From positions 107,841-144,592 of the forward strand of contig JAAYIH010000049.1 of assembly GCA_012523545.1 (NCBI GenBank): DNA of 36,752 nucleotides, in the 5' to 3' direction. The stretch comes from Bacillota bacterium (GTDB lineage: Bacteria > Bacillota > Proteinivoracia > UBA4975). This document shows positions 22,591 through 31,092 of this stretch, in pieces. The notes beneath the pieces were generated by a model that searched no databases, was not told the origin of the DNA, and worked only from the letters and a program-made list of their open reading frames with translations. Made by a program: the position numbers and the translations under genes. The stretch's first letter is position 1. Every line of letters starts with the position of its first letter.

Positions 22591-24588
22591 GTGCAAGTCA
22601 GAGTTTCAAAATTTGCCGGGTTTTGTCCCGGCGTCAAGAGGGCGGCCGAAATGGCCCTTAAAGGTGCCGCAGACACAGGCGGCAGCATAGCCACCTACGG
22701 TCCGCTGGTGCACAACAGGGATATGCTGGATTACTTGGCCCAGAGGGGTATCGGCGTTGTAGAGGATATTAAGGCTGCACACCAGGATACTATTGTGGTG
22801 CGCGCCCACGGTATCACTCCTGCGGAAATGGAAGCACTGGAAAGCGCAGGCAAAAAAATTATCGATGCCACCTGCCCCTTTGTCAGCCGCATTCATAAAA
22901 TTGCCAGTTCCCTGGAAGACAGGTATCTGTTCATCGTAGGCGACCCGCATCATCCCGAGGTAAAGGGAATTGCCGGCTGGGCGCGCTACGGTTGCGCTGT
23001 CGTTCCCGATGAACAAACGGCCCAAACTGTCGAGGCAGAGCTGCCGGTGGCAGTGGTGGTCCAGACAACTTTTGCAGTGGACAGATTTCAGCGCATCCTG
23101 GAGATACTAAAGCAAAGGTTTGCCGACATCTTAGTATTTGATACAATTTGCCCGGCAACCCTGGAACGCCAACGGGAAGTGGCTGAAATCAGCAGGCAAT
23201 CTGATTTAATGCTGGTCATTGGCGGCAAATCCAGTGCCAATACCCGCAAATTGGTGGAAATATGTTTGCAATCCGGTGTCGAGACACATCACATACAGTC
23301 AGCTGCAGACATAAACCCTGGGTGGTTTCACAGCAAAAAAGCCGTGGGAATTGCCGCAGGTGCTTCGACTCCGGAATGGATTATAAGGGAGGTTGTTGAA
23401 ATGGTTATGGAAACTAACAATGAGGGCATCGAAGAGGTAAAGGAGGACACCAACGCAAACGCAATCTTGGAGCAGGACAGCAAACCCTTGGCGGTTGGCG
23501 ATATAGTCGTTGGCAAAGTCGTTCAGGTTAACCCCGATGAAGTACTTGTCGATGTCGGCCATAAGATGGAGGGACTGATTCGCAAGGAAGAGCTCTCCTT
23601 CCGCACTGTGGAGCATTGCGAAGAGCTGGTAAACGTTGGCGACGAGCTGGAAGCCGAAGTTATTCGGCTCACCGATGACCTGCTTGAACTCTCGGTGCGC
23701 AAGGTTACCCAGGCCAAGGCCTGGAACATGGTAAAAGAGGCCTTTGAAAACCAGACCCCGGTAACCGGCAAGGTTGTCGAAGTGGTCAAGGGCGGCCTCA
23801 TCGTCGACCTGGGTTTGCGGGGATTCATGCCCGCCTCACTGGTGGATCTGCGCTTTGTCGAAGACCTTTCGCAATTTGTCGGCCAGGAAGTAACTGTAAT
23901 GGTTATTGAACTGGAACGCCGGCGCAACAAGGTCATAGTGTCGAGAAAGGCGTACTTGATGCGGGAGGCCGAGGAAAAGAAGGCCCGGACCCTGGCCAAT
24001 CTGAAAGAAGGGACAGTGGTCCCGGGCATCGTCAGACGCCTGACCAATTTTGGCGCCTTTGTCGATATCGGCGGCATCGACGGCTTGATCCACATCTCTG
24101 AACTGGCCCACTATCGCGTTGAACATCCCAGTGAAGTGTTGCAAGAGAATCAGGAGATTGAAGTATATGTCCTTAAAGTGGATAAGGAAGCCGAGCGGGT
24201 TTCCCTCAGCCTCAAGCAAACGCTGCCCGATCCCTGGTCAGAAGTGGCCAGCAAATTCAAGCCCGGCGCAATAGTGGAGGGCAAGGTTGTCCGCCTGGCT
24301 GACTTCGGGGCATTTGTGGAATTGATTCCCGGTGTCGACGGCCTTGTTCACGTCTCGCAAATTTCCGACGAGCACGTGGAAAAACCCGAAGATGTACTCA
24401 GCGTCGGCCAGGCAGTTAAGGTCAAGATTCTGGACATGGATATCGAGGCCAAGCGTATCAGCCTCAGCATGCGGGAAGCCACGAGAACTGCCGCCAAGCC
24501 AATGAGGGAAGAACCTTTTGAAACTACCATAGGCGCAACCATTGGCGAACGCCTGGGCAACATCTTCGAAAGCAATGAAGGTGAATAA
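22591..24588 (+). CDS. ispH-rpsA: IspH-RpsA fusion: HMBPP reductase joined to ribosomal protein S1
   Basis: A 665-residue two-part protein. Residues 1-270 are IspH, the [4Fe-4S] enzyme making IPP and DMAPP in the MEP pathway; cluster cysteines are C12 (GFCPGVKRA), C95 (DATCPF) and C187 (DTICPAT), with substrate histidines in HNRDM, RAHG and GDPHHPE. Residues about 300-640 hold four S1 RNA-binding domains, each beginning like VVGKVVQV, VTGKVVEV, VPGIVRRL or VEGKVVRL. This fusion is known from several Clostridia. The start is GTG 22591 with a weak GGCGGGAA site. A strong internal ribosome site precedes Met271, so free S1 may also be made. It overlaps fni by 14 bases. Confidence 0.94.
   Translation: MQVRVSKFAGFCPGVKRAAEMALKGAADTGGSIATYGPLVHNRDMLDYLAQRGIGVVEDIKAAHQDTIVVRAHGITPAEMEALESAGKKIIDATCPFVSRIHKIASSLEDRYLFIVGDPHHPEVKGIAGWARYGCAVVPDEQTAQTVEAELPVAVVVQTTFAVDRFQRILEILKQRFADILVFDTICPATLERQREVAEISRQSDLMLVIGGKSSANTRKLVEICLQSGVETHHIQSAADINPGWFHSKKAVGIAAGASTPEWIIREVVEMVMETNNEGIEEVKEDTNANAILEQDSKPLAVGDIVVGKVVQVNPDEVLVDVGHKMEGLIRKEELSFRTVEHCEELVNVGDELEAEVIRLTDDLLELSVRKVTQAKAWNMVKEAFENQTPVTGKVVEVVKGGLIVDLGLRGFMPASLVDLRFVEDLSQFVGQEVTVMVIELERRRNKVIVSRKAYLMREAEEKKARTLANLKEGTVVPGIVRRLTNFGAFVDIGGIDGLIHISELAHYRVEHPSEVLQENQEIEVYVLKVDKEAERVSLSLKQTLPDPWSEVASKFKPGAIVEGKVVRLADFGAFVELIPGVDGLVHVSQISDEHVEKPEDVLSVGQAVKVKILDMDIEAKRISLSMREATRTAAKPMREEPFETTIGATIGERLGNIFESNEGE
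23385..23403 (+). promoter_or_regulatory. Internal ribosome binding site and start codon for S1 alone
   Basis: AAGGGAGGT (23385-23393) lies eight bases before an in-frame ATG (23401-23403), exactly between the IspH and S1 parts of the fusion. It is stronger than the site of the fusion itself. Initiation here would give a 395-residue S1 with its four RNA-binding domains. This is a sequence prediction only. Confidence 0.5.
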
Positions 24589-25709: not shown

Positions 25710-26363
25710 GTGACTCCTTTTTTGCTCACGGGCCTGGCGGTTGTTATCTATCTTGGCTTGCTGCAGCGAACTCTGGACCGAATGCGCCTCAGCGACAGAG
25801 CTGCCCTGGTAATCATTGCGTTGATGTTGGCGGGAACATGGCTGCCCGACGTCAAGATTGGCCTGCTCAGCATAAATCTGGGCAGCACCCTGGTGCCTCT
25901 GGGTTTGGCGGTATATTTAATCGGCACCGCCGACAGGTTGCAGGAGCAGGTGCGGGCATTGGCCGCCATTGCAGCCAGCACCATTGCGGTGCTGTTGTTG
26001 GACTGGGTGTTGCCCCAGGAACCGGGCGCAATGTTTATCGAGCCCATGTATGCCTATGGCCTGGCTGCGGGGATTATTGGCTACCTGGCCGGCCGGTCGC
26101 GGCGTTCTGCCTTTCTGGCGGGAATGCTGGGCATCCTGCTGGCAGATACCATCATCGTTTTGCGGCAATTACCCCTGCAAAGCGCCTACCGGATTGGAGG
26201 CGGTATTTTTGACTCAGCTCTGATTGCGGGGATAATTGCCGTGGGCATTGCCGAACTGGTGGGGGAAACCCGGGAATTTGTCGCTCCTGACAAAGGTAAA
26301 AGCAAAATCGCTTGGCTGGATGAGAAGCGCCGGGAAAAGTACAGGAAAAAGAACGGGCGGTAA
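25710..26363 (+). CDS. DUF1614-like multi-pass membrane protein
   Basis: A 217-residue membrane protein with about six hydrophobic segments. The order of LSINLGSTLVPLGLAVYLI, GMLGILLADTIIVLR and RIGGGIFDSALIAGIIAVGIAEL resembles the DUF1614 family, which has similar NxGGxxxP, GTLGxLIGAD and SIGGAGTFDGI stretches. The cytoplasmic tail is basic (WLDEKRREKYRKKNGR). GTG 25710 is chosen because GAGGTGG (25696-25702) is seven bases upstream; the longer frame starts within fni. It ends two bases before the YIEGIA gene, so the two are probably co-expressed. Function unknown. Confidence 0.7.
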   Translation: MTPFLLTGLAVVIYLGLLQRTLDRMRLSDRAALVIIALMLAGTWLPDVKIGLLSINLGSTLVPLGLAVYLIGTADRLQEQVRALAAIAASTIAVLLLDWVLPQEPGAMFIEPMYAYGLAAGIIGYLAGRSRRSAFLAGMLGILLADTIIVLRQLPLQSAYRIGGGIFDSALIAGIIAVGIAELVGETREFVAPDKGKSKIAWLDEKRREKYRKKNGR

Positions 26364-26365
26364 CC

Positions 26366-27298
26366 ATGGCAGACAATTTCAGCTCTATTGTCCTGGCCGC
26401 TATATTGGGTGGCGCACTTCGTTTCCTGCTTCTGCGCTCCGATTACCGCCAATACCCCACATATCCCCATGGCTATGTCTCACATCTGGCCCTGGGCTTT
26501 ATTGCTGCCGCCCTGGGAGCGGTGGCTCTACCGGCGTTGCTGGAGCAGGAATACGTGGCGGTTACATTCCTGTCTTTGGCAGCGCAACAATTTAGGGATA
26601 TTCGCAGCATGGAGAGGGAAACCCTGACCAAACTTGATGCCAGGGAACTGGTGCCCCGGGGCGAACATTACATTGAGGGAATTGCCAGGACTTTTGAAGC
26701 CCGCAATTACCTGGTCATGGGTTGCACGCTGATTATCAGCGCCACAGACCTTTGGTTGCTGCGGGAGTGCTCACCCTGGCTGCGGGGTTGCGGTCTCCTG
26801 TTGACCGCTCTGTTGCTGTACATGGCGGTGCGCAATGTCATGGAAGGGAAAAGGGTGGAACACCTGGCGACCATAAGGCCGGGAAAAATCATCTTTAAAG
26901 GGGCAAATGTATTTGTTGATGATATTCACTTTATGAACCTGGGTCTGGATGAAGCCAAGGCCGAATTCCTAAAAAAGGGGATGGGAGTGGTCCTGGAACC
27001 CAAAGACATCGATGCTTCAGCGACACTGGCCAACATCGGCCAACGGCAGGCCATAGCGCACATATGCGCCAAGTTGCTGGGCATCTATAAAGATGTGGAT
27101 ACGCCTGAATTTACCCCTTTAGTGCGCCGGGATGTAAAAACGGGCAGACTGGGCCTGCTCATCATTCCCGCCACCAGGGATTGGGATGCCCTGTTGGATG
27201 CGGTGAAAAGAGTTCCGGTACTGGAGGGGTCCATTTCCCGTCCCAGCAGATCCAAAGCCGGAAGAAAGCGGGGAGATTATGAGCACCAGTCTCAATAA
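26366..27298 (+). CDS. YIEGIA family membrane protein
   Basis: A 310-residue protein named after the YIEGIA motif, present here at residues 102-107 (GEHYIEGIARTFEARNYLVM). Hydrophobic segments are at about 8-24, 40-60, 112-128 and 137-153. The C-terminal half is soluble, with LGLDEAKAEFLKKGMG and LLIIPATRDWDALLDA. The family occurs in spore-forming Firmicutes; its mechanism is unknown to me. It overlaps the small partner gene by 20 bases. The ATG at 26366 is the only sensible start. Confidence 0.85.
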   Translation: MADNFSSIVLAAILGGALRFLLLRSDYRQYPTYPHGYVSHLALGFIAAALGAVALPALLEQEYVAVTFLSLAAQQFRDIRSMERETLTKLDARELVPRGEHYIEGIARTFEARNYLVMGCTLIISATDLWLLRECSPWLRGCGLLLTALLLYMAVRNVMEGKRVEHLATIRPGKIIFKGANVFVDDIHFMNLGLDEAKAEFLKKGMGVVLEPKDIDASATLANIGQRQAIAHICAKLLGIYKDVDTPEFTPLVRRDVKTGRLGLLIIPATRDWDALLDAVKRVPVLEGSISRPSRSKAGRKRGDYEHQSQ

Positions 27299-27482
27299 AG
27301 TAGTGTTGGCCACCATTGTGTTGCCGCACTCCAAAGATCTTGTATTGTCGGGCGGAGCGGGCCCTGTTTTTGTGGCGGCCAATAAAGAAGAGCAGCAGCG
27401 GCTGGCCTTGTACATGTCCCGGATAACCGAAGGAGTAGTTCATGACTTGGAAAACGGCGTCCTGGTCGTTGTCAAACATTGA
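27279..27482 (+). CDS. Small partner protein of YIEGIA (capping complex subunit type)
   Basis: A 67-residue soluble protein. The pattern VVLATIVLPHSKDLVLSGGAGPVFVAANKEEQ..LALYMSRITEGVVHDLENGVLVVVKH fits the small family annotated elsewhere as the capping complex subunit for YIEGIA. ATG 27279 lies inside the end of the YIEGIA gene behind GGGGAG, so translation is coupled. The name comes from memory of family annotation; a direct biochemical role is not known to me. Confidence 0.75.
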   Translation: MSTSLNKVVLATIVLPHSKDLVLSGGAGPVFVAANKEEQQRLALYMSRITEGVVHDLENGVLVVVKH

Positions 27483-27540
27483 CCGGGTAATCATAAAATT
27501 TGACATAATTCCCGAAAAAACTCGCTAAGTCGGTGATACT

Positions 27541-28011
27541 ATCGGCAAAGTCTATATATATCACTGTTATGGCGGTTCCCATTCGTCGGTCGTGGCGGCC
27601 GCTGTCCACGTTGGCCTGTTGGCCCCCCACCCATGTCCATCCCGGCAGGTTCTAATGAGCTTGCCTTATTTTGATACGCAAAAATCCGCTGATCACGGAA
27701 TTTTACAATTCGTCGGCACCGACCAGGCGGGGAATGTGGTTTGTTCGGTGGGTTTACAAACGGCGGCCGATACCGTAATAAAGGCCCTGGCCAACCTGAT
27801 GGCCATTGCCGGGGCCGGCGGCAGGGAGATTGTGTTTATCGACACTTTGCCTGCCGTAAACCTGTGGATGAAGATAGGGGGAATATGCTCCCGGGTATTT
27901 GGCTTGAAGGCAATTGGCCGTCCCCTGGTTGTCTTTGGGGTAAAGAGGGCATTCCCCAGCCTGGTGAGTCTGGTGAACCGGGCGCTGATGGCTGAGCAGA
28001 AGGAGGTTTAA
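27541..28011 (+). CDS. DUF3189 family protein, first copy, non-canonical start
   Basis: About 156 residues. The conserved N-terminus of DUF3189, VYIYHCYGGSHSSVVAAAVHVG, is encoded in frame at 27550-27615, but the frame has no ATG, GTG or TTG between the stop at 27526-27528 and GTG 27592, which is in the middle of this block. The residue expected to be Met is ATC at 27541, four bases after GGTGA (27532-27536). Initiation at ATC (or ATA 27556), a base change, or an indel linking GTG 27533 are possible. The rest is normal: LPYFDT, FVGTDQAGNVVCSVG, LPAVNLWMKIGGICSRVFGLKAIGRPLVVFG. Role unknown. Confidence 0.75.
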   Translation: MGKVYIYHCYGGSHSSVVAAAVHVGLLAPHPCPSRQVLMSLPYFDTQKSADHGILQFVGTDQAGNVVCSVGLQTAADTVIKALANLMAIAGAGGREIVFIDTLPAVNLWMKIGGICSRVFGLKAIGRPLVVFGVKRAFPSLVSLVNRALMAEQKEV

Positions 28012-28452
28012 ATGGTATACTTTTATCACTGCTACCGGGGGGCGCATTTGTCCATAACCGCTGCTGCTCTGCATCTGGGCAAAATAACTGTCCGCTCCGG
28101 TGTAAAAGAGCTGTTGGCATTGCAGTACTTTGACATCCTGCAACCCGAAGATATGGGAACGCCGGTGTTGGCCGGGTATGACCGGGATAACAACCCGGTA
28201 TATTTTGTCGGCCTGGGCCGGGGAAGCAAAATATTTGCCCGTTTTGCCGACAGTTTAGTCCGGCAGCTGGGCCTGGACATACAGTATAAATCCGTTGATT
28301 GTCTGCCTTGCCTGAACATCTTTACGCGTGTGGGCGGTTTTCTTGCGCGATTTAGGGGCATTGGCGTGCTGGGCAGGCGCCTGGCAGCCTGGGGCGTGGC
28401 TAAAAATCTGGACAGACTGCATTCCCTGGTTTTGCAAGCACAGGGAAGATAA
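28012..28452 (+). CDS. DUF3189 family protein, second copy
   Basis: A 146-residue paralogue of the preceding gene, starting with ATG directly after its stop behind AAGGAGGT (28000-28007). It begins VYFYHCYRGAHLSITAAALHLGKI and shares YFDIL, GYDRDNNPVYFVGLGRG and CLNIFTRVGGFLARFRGIGVLGRRL with the first copy. The first block has Arg where the family usually has the second Gly (YHCYGG). No membrane segment is seen. Function unknown; the family is found in Clostridia and related spore formers. Confidence 0.85.
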   Translation: MVYFYHCYRGAHLSITAAALHLGKITVRSGVKELLALQYFDILQPEDMGTPVLAGYDRDNNPVYFVGLGRGSKIFARFADSLVRQLGLDIQYKSVDCLPCLNIFTRVGGFLARFRGIGVLGRRLAAWGVAKNLDRLHSLVLQAQGR

Positions 28453-28460
28453 AGTATAAT
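28432..28460 (+). promoter_or_regulatory. Sigma-A promoter of the DUF512-der unit
   Basis: TTGCAA (28432-28437) and a perfect TATAAT (28455-28460) are 17 bases apart. The -35 lies within the last codons of the DUF3189 gene. The start point near 28467 leaves a leader of about 32 bases before the ATG at 28499. Confidence 0.75.
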
Positions 28461-28498
28461 TCACATATGCGGAGCATTTGCGGTAATGAGGTGTTGTA

Positions 28499-29785
28499 AT
28501 GCTGAAGATTAAAAGTGTGGTTCCGGGGGGCATCGGGGCGGAATTGGGCCTGGTGCCGGGAGATATCATTCTGTCTTTTAACGAAAAACCTGCCCGGGAC
28601 ATATTGGATTACTGCTTTCATGCCACTGACGAAAAGCTGTGTATCCGGGTGAAGAAGAACCGGGAGATCATCGATTACGAAATAGAGAAGGATTACCAGG
28701 ACGACCTGGGGCTGGAGTTTGAATTGCGGCCCAGACAATGCCGAAACAAATGCATTTTTTGTTTTGTAGACCAGATGCCGCCGCATCTGCGCAGGACACT
28801 GTATATCAAAGATGATGACTATCGCCTTTCCTTTCTGCACGGGAATTATATCACCCTGACCAATCTCGATAACCGGGATATACAGCGTATTATTGACGAG
28901 CGGCTTTCGCCGCTGTACATTTCTGTCCATGCCTCCAACCCCCGGGTCCGCGCCCGCCTCCTGGGCAAAAACTCAAGCATAGACATCATGGAGCTGCTCA
29001 ATAGGTTTGCACGGGCTAAAATTGCTTTTCACGGACAAATAGTCCTTTGCCCGGGTTACAATGACGGTCCTGTCTTGCAACAGACCCTGACCGACCTGGC
29101 GGAATTGGGAGATTCTGTGCTTTCGCTGGCGGTGGTCCCGGTGGGGTTGACCAGGCATCGCAATCACCTGACGCCCCTGGCGCCGGTGACCAGGGAAATC
29201 GCCCGGGAAGTGATTGCTGTCATTGCCGGGTATCAGCAAAAATTCCTGAAGGAGCTGGGCCGCCGGACCGTGTATGCCGCCGATGAATTCTTTATCGTGG
29301 CGGAGCAACCGGTTCCCGGTCCGGAATACTACGAAGATTTTGCCCAACTGGAAAACGGCATAGGCCTTATTCGCAAAGCCCTGATGCAGGCCGAATCCCT
29401 CAGGGCTTTGCCGCCCAGGAGAACCAAGCCCGGGAAAGTGCTGCTGGTTACCGGCCTGGCCGCTCGTGACACACTTGACACCGCAGTCCCTGATTTGCAA
29501 CGCGTGCTGCCCGACCTTACGTTTTCTGTCCTGGCAGTGGAAAATCATCTGTTGGGCCCTCAGATTACTGTTGCCGGGTTACTGGCCGGCGCAGATATTT
29601 TGGCGGCATTGCGCAGGACCGATGCCGATTGGGATATCCTGGTGGTTCCGGAAACGGCAGTGCGGGCAGGCTGTTTTATCGATGATTGCACAACCGCTGA
29701 CTTGGCCCGGGAATTGGACAAACCTGTCTGTGCAGCCGCCGATTTCCTCGACTTGACTGAAATACTGATTCGGGAGGTGAAATGA
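28499..29785 (+). CDS. DUF512 protein with PDZ and radical-SAM-type iron-sulfur motif
   Basis: A 428-residue protein. The N-terminal 60 residues are PDZ-like (VPGGIGAELGLVPGDIILSFNEKPARD). An iron-sulfur motif CxxxCxxC follows at C81, C85 and C88 (CRNKCIFC), as in radical-SAM proteins, with YISVHASNPRVRARLLG and GQIVLCPGYNDG downstream. The DUF512 domain contains VPVGLTRHR and YAADEFFIVA, and the end has GPQITVAGLLAGADI. The family occurs in Firmicutes and cyanobacteria, often beside der as here; no reaction is established to my knowledge. GAGGTG (28487-28492) precedes the ATG. Confidence 0.88.
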   Translation: MLKIKSVVPGGIGAELGLVPGDIILSFNEKPARDILDYCFHATDEKLCIRVKKNREIIDYEIEKDYQDDLGLEFELRPRQCRNKCIFCFVDQMPPHLRRTLYIKDDDYRLSFLHGNYITLTNLDNRDIQRIIDERLSPLYISVHASNPRVRARLLGKNSSIDIMELLNRFARAKIAFHGQIVLCPGYNDGPVLQQTLTDLAELGDSVLSLAVVPVGLTRHRNHLTPLAPVTREIAREVIAVIAGYQQKFLKELGRRTVYAADEFFIVAEQPVPGPEYYEDFAQLENGIGLIRKALMQAESLRALPPRRTKPGKVLLVTGLAARDTLDTAVPDLQRVLPDLTFSVLAVENHLLGPQITVAGLLAGADILAALRRTDADWDILVVPETAVRAGCFIDDCTTADLARELDKPVCAAADFLDLTEILIREVK

Positions 29786-31092
29786 TGCTTCCGATTGTTT
29801 CCATAGTCGGCCGCCCCAACGTGGGCAAATCAACTTTATTTAACAAGATTATGCAACAGAGGCTGGCCATCGTTGAGGACACTCCGGGAGTGACCAGAGA
29901 CCGCCTGTACGGAAGGACGGACTGGAATGGAGTTCCCTTTATGCTGGTGGATACCGGCGGATTGGTTTGGGACGATGATCCTCTGGCCCAGGCAGTTGCA
30001 AGGCAAGCGGAAATTGCCATCGACGAAAGCGACGTCACCATTTTCCTTACAGATGCCAAAACCGGTCTTACCGGGGAAGACCATGACGTGGCGGCAATGT
30101 TGCGCCGCAGTCAAAAACAGGTTGTGCTGGCGGTTAACAAAGTAGATGATTTTTCGTGCAGCCACCAGCTGTTGGCAGAGTTCTATGAACTGGGACTGGG
30201 TGAGCCGATACCCATCTCTGCTGCCAATGGCCTCAATATCGGCGATCTCCTGGATGCCGTCGTCGCGCACCTGCCGGCCTTAACAGAACACGAAGAAGAC
30301 GATTCCATTTCCGTCGCCATTATAGGACGGCCCAATGTGGGCAAATCGTCCTTGTTCAATCGCCTTGTGGGGCAGGAGCGCTCGGTGGTCAGCGACATTC
30401 CCGGCACGACCAGGGATGCCATTGACACCAGGATCGTTCATGCCGGCGTACTATATACCTTCATAGATACCGCCGGGTTGCGCAAAAAGAGCAGGATAGG
30501 TTCGGGCATTGAATACTACAGTATGTTGCGCAGCATCCGGGCGGTAGAACGCAGCGACATAGCCATCATTGTCCTTGACGGGCGGGAAGGGCTGACGGAA
30601 CAGGACAAGCGCATAGCCGGAATTGCCCATGAAGCGGGCAAAGCATCGATACTCCTGGTCAACAAGTGGGATATTGTGGAAAAAGATTCCGACACGATGG
30701 CCAAATATCAAAAGGAATTGCGGCAGGGACTGCAATTTATGGATTACGCCAACATCGAATTTGTCTCTGCCTTGACGGGAGCCCGGTGCGCACGCCTGTT
30801 CCCGTTAATTCTGGCCACCATGGAGGAATATCAGCGCCGCATTGGCACCGGGTTGCTCAACGACCTGTTAAACGATGCGGTCCTGGCCAACCCGCCCTCG
30901 GCCAAGGGCCGCAAGGTTAAAATATACTACATTACCCAGGCAGCGATTAAGCCGCCGCGCTTTGTCCTTTTTGTCAATGCACCGGAACTCCTCCATTTTT
31001 CCTGGCTGCGCTATTTGGAAAACCGCCTCCGGGAAGCCTTTGGCTTCGCCGGGACGCCGATAAATTTTATCATCAGAAAGAGAGGAAAATGA
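29785..31092 (+). CDS. der: Der (EngA), double-GTPase for 50S ribosome assembly
   Basis: A 435-residue GTPase with two G domains in tandem and a KH-like C-terminal domain. The first P-loop is GRPNVGKS (9-16), the second GRPNVGKSS near residue 180; DTGG and DTAG are the G3 motifs, NKVD and NKWD the G4 motifs. It binds the large subunit during maturation. Two adjacent ATGs overlap the previous stop; the second (29785) has the better distance from GGAGGTGA (29773-29780). Confidence 0.96.
   Translation: MLPIVSIVGRPNVGKSTLFNKIMQQRLAIVEDTPGVTRDRLYGRTDWNGVPFMLVDTGGLVWDDDPLAQAVARQAEIAIDESDVTIFLTDAKTGLTGEDHDVAAMLRRSQKQVVLAVNKVDDFSCSHQLLAEFYELGLGEPIPISAANGLNIGDLLDAVVAHLPALTEHEEDDSISVAIIGRPNVGKSSLFNRLVGQERSVVSDIPGTTRDAIDTRIVHAGVLYTFIDTAGLRKKSRIGSGIEYYSMLRSIRAVERSDIAIIVLDGREGLTEQDKRIAGIAHEAGKASILLVNKWDIVEKDSDTMAKYQKELRQGLQFMDYANIEFVSALTGARCARLFPLILATMEEYQRRIGTGLLNDLLNDAVLANPPSAKGRKVKIYYITQAAIKPPRFVLFVNAPELLHFSWLRYLENRLREAFGFAGTPINFIIRKRGK

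Follow-up and report, generated by a model that had tools for sequence, protein, structure and literature searches.

This locus raises the question of where translation begins in a gene whose reading frame offers no standard start codon ahead of its most conserved residues. The window, meaning the whole stretch of 36,752 nucleotides that was analyzed (G000:C37:107841-144592), belongs to a 1.73 Mb genome in 55 contigs that is 96% complete. All features from 26366 to 28452 lie on the + strand. Gene A (27541-28011; 156 codons plus stop) had been assigned to DUF3189 in a sequence-only reading, and a profile search agreed, with PF11385 scoring 155.6 bits (gathering threshold 23.2) and its match starting at residue 9 of the translation of 27529-28008. 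The gene follows a YIEGIA membrane protein gene (26366-27298; PF14045, 367.3 bits) and, immediately 5′, a gene for a YIEGIA capping-complex subunit (27279-27482; PF21835, 67.1 bits). Directly after it comes gene B (28012-28452; PF11385, 111 bits), a tandem paralogue and second DUF3189 gene with an AAGGAGG and a canonical ATG. An Rfam search of 26300-29800 returned nothing at E ≤ 1. Elsewhere in the window (22591-24588), the translation reads as an IspH-like protein apparently fused to S1-type repeats in a single 665-aa frame.

Re-reading the sequence confirmed the codons listed earlier. In the frame of the YHCYGGSHSS motif, TAA 27526-27528 is followed by GTC, GGT, GAT, ACT, ATC, GGC, AAA, GTC, TAT and ATA, and the motif opens with TAT 27559. 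No ATG, GTG or TTG occurs between that stop and the motif. A GGTGA lies at 27532-27536, with ATC 27541-27543 four bases on. The first start accepted under table 11 is GTG 27592-27594, where a gene caller would clip the protein, as had been predicted, at a cost of 17 residues counted from ATC 27541.

These 17 residues include the most conserved part of the protein. Motif columns Y7, H8, C9, Y10, G11, G12, H14 and S16 were invariant in 58 sequences including that of the window. The YHCYGG.HS block present in gene A is not universal in DUF3189, as a YFDYGG type differs. Counting from ATC, the AlphaFold2 model of the gene A product (mean pLDDT 90.2) has strand 1 at residues 4-9, and initiation at GTG 27592 would thus remove both this strand and the invariant motif. 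With the model, Foldseek found no match at E ≤ 0.001, and the best VIA-align hit was weak (8p6m; Z 6.4, rmsd 3.9 over 94 residues). When solved structures were searched by sequence, the one match was at chance level (E 0.83). The likeness of the model to low-molecular-weight tyrosine/arginine phosphatases and arsenate reductase is weak. The phosphate loop of those enzymes is C-x5-R, and gene A reads C-YGGSH-S at this place, with serine instead of arginine.

Gene A was found in seven of eight genomes examined from the window's order, the window's own included. None of the six order relatives had ATG, GTG or TTG within the eight codons before the motif. Each carried AUH (AUU, AUC or AUA) at codon −6, aligned with ATC 27541, after GGTGGTG or a closely similar string. 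This codon was ATC in G001, G003, G005 and G007 and ATA in G002 and G004, so that ATC or ATA, always with a Shine-Dalgarno (SD)-like stretch 5′ of it, occupied the position in 7/7 order members. Codons −8, −7, −5, −4 and −3 varied while codon −6 stayed within this pair. Among 163 other distinct DUF3189 loci (order members and duplicates excluded), only 10 had ATH at codon −6, and 143 had a canonical start at codon −4. For gene B, five genomes of the order have an ATG start and two have a TTG. Two features of this comparison count against an AUC start, namely that the five order mates bearing names were assembled from metagenomes and that the order relatives are not independent of each other.

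SD pairing was calculated as RNAduplex energy against the 16S tail (kcal/mol), with canonical DUF3189 starts as controls and a shuffled background. Among in-frame codons from 27529 to 27592, ATC 27541 showed the strongest SD-like pairing (−9.4 kcal/mol, equaled by the next codon through overlap of the scored windows), and the frame held no canonical alternative between the stop and the motif. The stretch responsible is TAAGTCGGTGAT (27526-27537), whose register fits ATC 27541 and whose first three bases double as the last in-frame stop. Pairing elsewhere was −0.3 at GTC 27529, −2.9 at GTG 27592 and −0.3 kcal/mol at the out-of-frame GTG 27533. In the relatives, the AUH codon scored −13.9 (G001), −6.1 (G002), −10.1 (G003), −9.7 (G004) and −11.9 (G005 and G007), giving a mean of −10.4 kcal/mol with the window included. 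Canonical control starts (n = 161) had a median of −9.3 and quartiles of −10.7 and −7.4 kcal/mol. The shuffled background had a median of −5.0, and 10% of it reached −9.5 kcal/mol, so a single gene alone would be unconvincing. Compared with shuffles of each gene's own upstream 62 bases, the AUH energies gave p values of 0.002-0.083; the mean of the seven, which are related sequences, was reached by 0 of 2000 shuffles. By a crude register score, SD-to-start spacing was 7 nt in the window, 8 nt in three relatives and 11 nt in three, and canonical control spacings scored in the same way peaked at 7 and 10. Counting against an AUC start are the 11 nt spacing, rather than 7-8 nt, in those three relatives, and the weakest case, G002, where AUA scored −6.1 with a shuffle p of 0.083. 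The arrangement at ATC 27541 is more than chance: SD pairing is strongest there, and relatives conserve the arrangement.

A separate element lies further upstream. CGGGYAATCAYWWWWYTYGAC(A) (27484-27505) ends 35 nt 5′ of the AUC. Its exact match was the only one in the window, where shuffled sequence gave a mean of 0.02, and CGGGYAATCAYWWWWYTYGAC was present 5′ of gene A in 7/8 order genomes. Leaderless initiation from this element was considered and rejected on the grounds that its distance to the start varies. The element also occurred at a second site in order genomes, the G000 copy having two mismatches. At the second sites that were read, it is flanked by a UPF0102 gene and a ComM-like Mg-chelatase gene and runs opposite to the gene downstream of it. 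The TTCGACA part of the element is similar to a Spo0A box, and a regulator site common to both locations is possible.

The alternative that we initially favored was a start, lacking a usable SD, at GTG GTG (codons −10 and −9), which is in frame in 6/6 order relatives inside the SD-like stretch. GTC 27529 of the window, aligned with the first GTG, would then be either a GTC start like that of Streptomyces sigR, for which PMC5472188 documents a natural GTC start, or the mark of a crippled gene. This reading was dropped after the SD analysis and now appears unlikely. GTC 27529 paired at −0.3, and GTG −10 reached only −4.0 (G007), −0.8 (G005), −0.1 (G004), −0.3 (G003) and −3.2 (G002) in five of six relatives, with −9.4 in G001 (mean −2.6 kcal/mol). 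GTG −9 was somewhat better, with −9.4 in G001, −6.8 in G007 and −5.4 in G002, next to −2.8 (G003), −2.0 (G004), −2.2 (G005) and −0.3 at the corresponding GGT of the window (mean −4.1 kcal/mol). The GTG GTG kept in all six relatives, a potential start lacking an SD, counts against an AUC start, as do the G001 GTG energy of −9.4 and the G007 value of −6.8 at GTG −9. These GTGs share bases with the SD-like stretch that precedes the AUH codon itself. In the window, GGTG lies one base closer to the start than in the relatives, which puts the GTG out of frame and leaves the SD-like string intact, so the string is favored as an SD rather than as codons. The YFDYGG clade described below points the same way: five of its ten members have a GTG inside the SD, and the rest have AUH without such a GTG, bar one ambiguous case.

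An error of assembly or consensus, hiding a true ATG at 27541 or a TA repeat (27552-27560) that is really one unit shorter, seems very improbable. The assembly is fragmented (55 contigs), and GTG 27533 would come into frame through an indel of two bases in this repeat. However, six separately assembled relatives carry AUH, never ATG, at this codon, and the SD energy of GTG 27533 is −0.3 kcal/mol. Less probable still is decay of gene A towards a pseudogene after loss of its start, as the small genome (1.73 Mb) and the missing canonical start might suggest. Gene A does not look decayed, judging from a frame open across the whole family length, a retained invariant motif and a start class common to the whole order. 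Its substitutions relative to the relatives are concentrated at third positions (dN 0.38-0.50, dS near or beyond saturation), and dN/dS among G002-G005 was about 0.07-0.15. Fusion of gene A to the cap gene by frameshifting was also considered and fails, because several relatives have in-frame stops between the two genes.

The wider family was surveyed through 271 DUF3189 loci from 80 named contigs and further genomes, with A and B types mixed and some loci representing the same contig from two collections. The motif located 268 of these (not L031, L163 or L179), which yielded 224 distinct start regions. ATG, GTG or TTG occurred within eight codons in 213 of the 224. The other 11 were the six order relatives, L071, L193 and three YFDYGG-type loci. 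L193, with no near start and an ATG at −14, was not counted as AUH. L071 (2501-2917 of a Gelria-labeled assembly) is of the YHCYGG type and has ATT at −4 with an SD of −15.1 kcal/mol; its sister L090 has ATG, and the AUU could have arisen either through a recent change or through misassembly.

YFDYGG-type genes (L157, L301-L309), which belong to Syntrophomonas-like genomes, were found in 10 of 63 genomes searched in one class. All ten had AUH at codon −4 or −5 (AUU in seven, AUC in two, AUA in one) with SDs of −9.7 to −13.1 kcal/mol, although one, G409, is ambiguous, having a GTG of equal SD directly before its ATT. The five with an in-frame GTG inside the SD, a GTG without its own SD as in most window relatives, fall among the 213 canonical-start regions. 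PF11385 matched in 4/4 YFDYGG proteins tested, and weakly in 3/4 of the downstream genes tested. The downstream gene started with ATG, TTG or GTG where its start could be located (7/10). Where checked, the AUH gene was the first of a tandem DUF3189 pair and the second was canonically started. A phylum-wide draw of 398 genomes under a strict cut-off gave three YFDYGG matches, all in genomes that contig and position showed to be already included, so the subclade looks restricted. Initial single-protein scans of genome contigs and viral contigs returned no relatives, and no mention of DUF3189 or PF11385 was found in the literature searched, which was limited in coverage.

A quick IQ-TREE phylogeny of 70 DUF3189 proteins, with the start codons left out, placed the AUH label with three changes, compared with a shuffled mean of 16.1 and 0/500 shuffles as low. 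One group was the window's order (support 94 for its 7 rows), whose sisters are same-class genes that start canonically; the second was the YFDYGG clade (support 99 for 10 rows), and L071 stood alone. The starred branches alone required two AUH changes. These changes imply more than one origin of AUH and its retention in two clades, across whose 17 members the third base switched among U, C and A but never to G. The pattern is therefore broader than the sequence-only reading had noted: on these comparisons, it is one protein family in which an AUH start recurs.

The known precedent for such starts is infC, whose AUU, AUC or AUA start is discriminated by IF3, which represses such codons, according to PMC5472188. 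We located infC in 8/8 order genomes and confirmed the IF3 domains of the G000 product. Its start is AUC in G000 and G002-G005, whereas G001, G006 and G007 have AUU. The likeness to gene A is an AUH start after an SD, with AUC used in the same genome. In contrast, infC has stronger SDs in the order genomes (−13.2 to −16.2 kcal/mol) and regulates its own synthesis. As DUF3189 is a different protein from IF3, a link to IF3, if any, would have to act in trans. Staphylococcal ccpN (AUA) and cvfC1 (AUU) likewise have conserved AUH starts, each with a strong SD, and PMC13009471 gives reporter activities near 10% of AUG in poor medium, with ccpN reaching as much as 30% in rich medium. They are other proteins with experimentally proven starts, whereas the gene A start is proposed from sequence comparison and its SD is not unusually strong in the window's order. 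The GTC start of Streptomyces sigR is IF3-repressed and limits SigR relative to its partner RsrA, again from PMC5472188; a similar relation may hold for genes A and B, although gene A has AUH rather than GTC.

An AUC start at 27541 analogous to infC, as the sequence-only reading had put forward, is thus backed by the relatives, the SD-like stretch and the AUC infC of the same genome, and the assignment is well supported on these grounds. We infer that translation would truly begin at this codon and, by analogy, that the yield of A would be low and under IF3 control. The full reading, to which we give a probability of about 0.78, is that translation of gene A starts at AUC 27541 by SD-driven, IF3-discriminated initiation, with low or IF3-linked synthesis relative to B. 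TAAGTCGGTGAT would position the 30S subunit at the AUC, with which the initiator tRNA would pair imperfectly, as at infC. IF3 would destabilize complexes of initiator tRNA on AUC, so A synthesis would be held low relative to canonically started B, and it may increase when free IF3 drops. Poor, possibly regulated initiation at 27541, also suggested earlier, fits the reporter data on other genes in PMC13009471 and PMC5472188.

Retention of AUC, and of AUH more generally, over long evolutionary distances suggests that a weak, possibly regulated start may be under selection. More tentatively, and at somewhat below even odds, AUH in the first gene of DUF3189 pairs may have at least three origins and be a selected, IF3-sensed dial that holds A below its partner. 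If true, DUF3189 would join infC as a family with a start-codon class conserved across deep bacterial divergence. Well-supported non-canonical starts are very few in bacterial genes and invisible to gene callers, and standard callers would cut the most conserved part of this protein or, in relatives, choose as start a GTG lying within the SD. A recurrent AUU, AUC or AUA start would offer a natural test of IF3-dependent start discrimination beyond infC, as well as a handle on an uncharacterized Bacillota gene pair that adjoins YIEGIA in the window.
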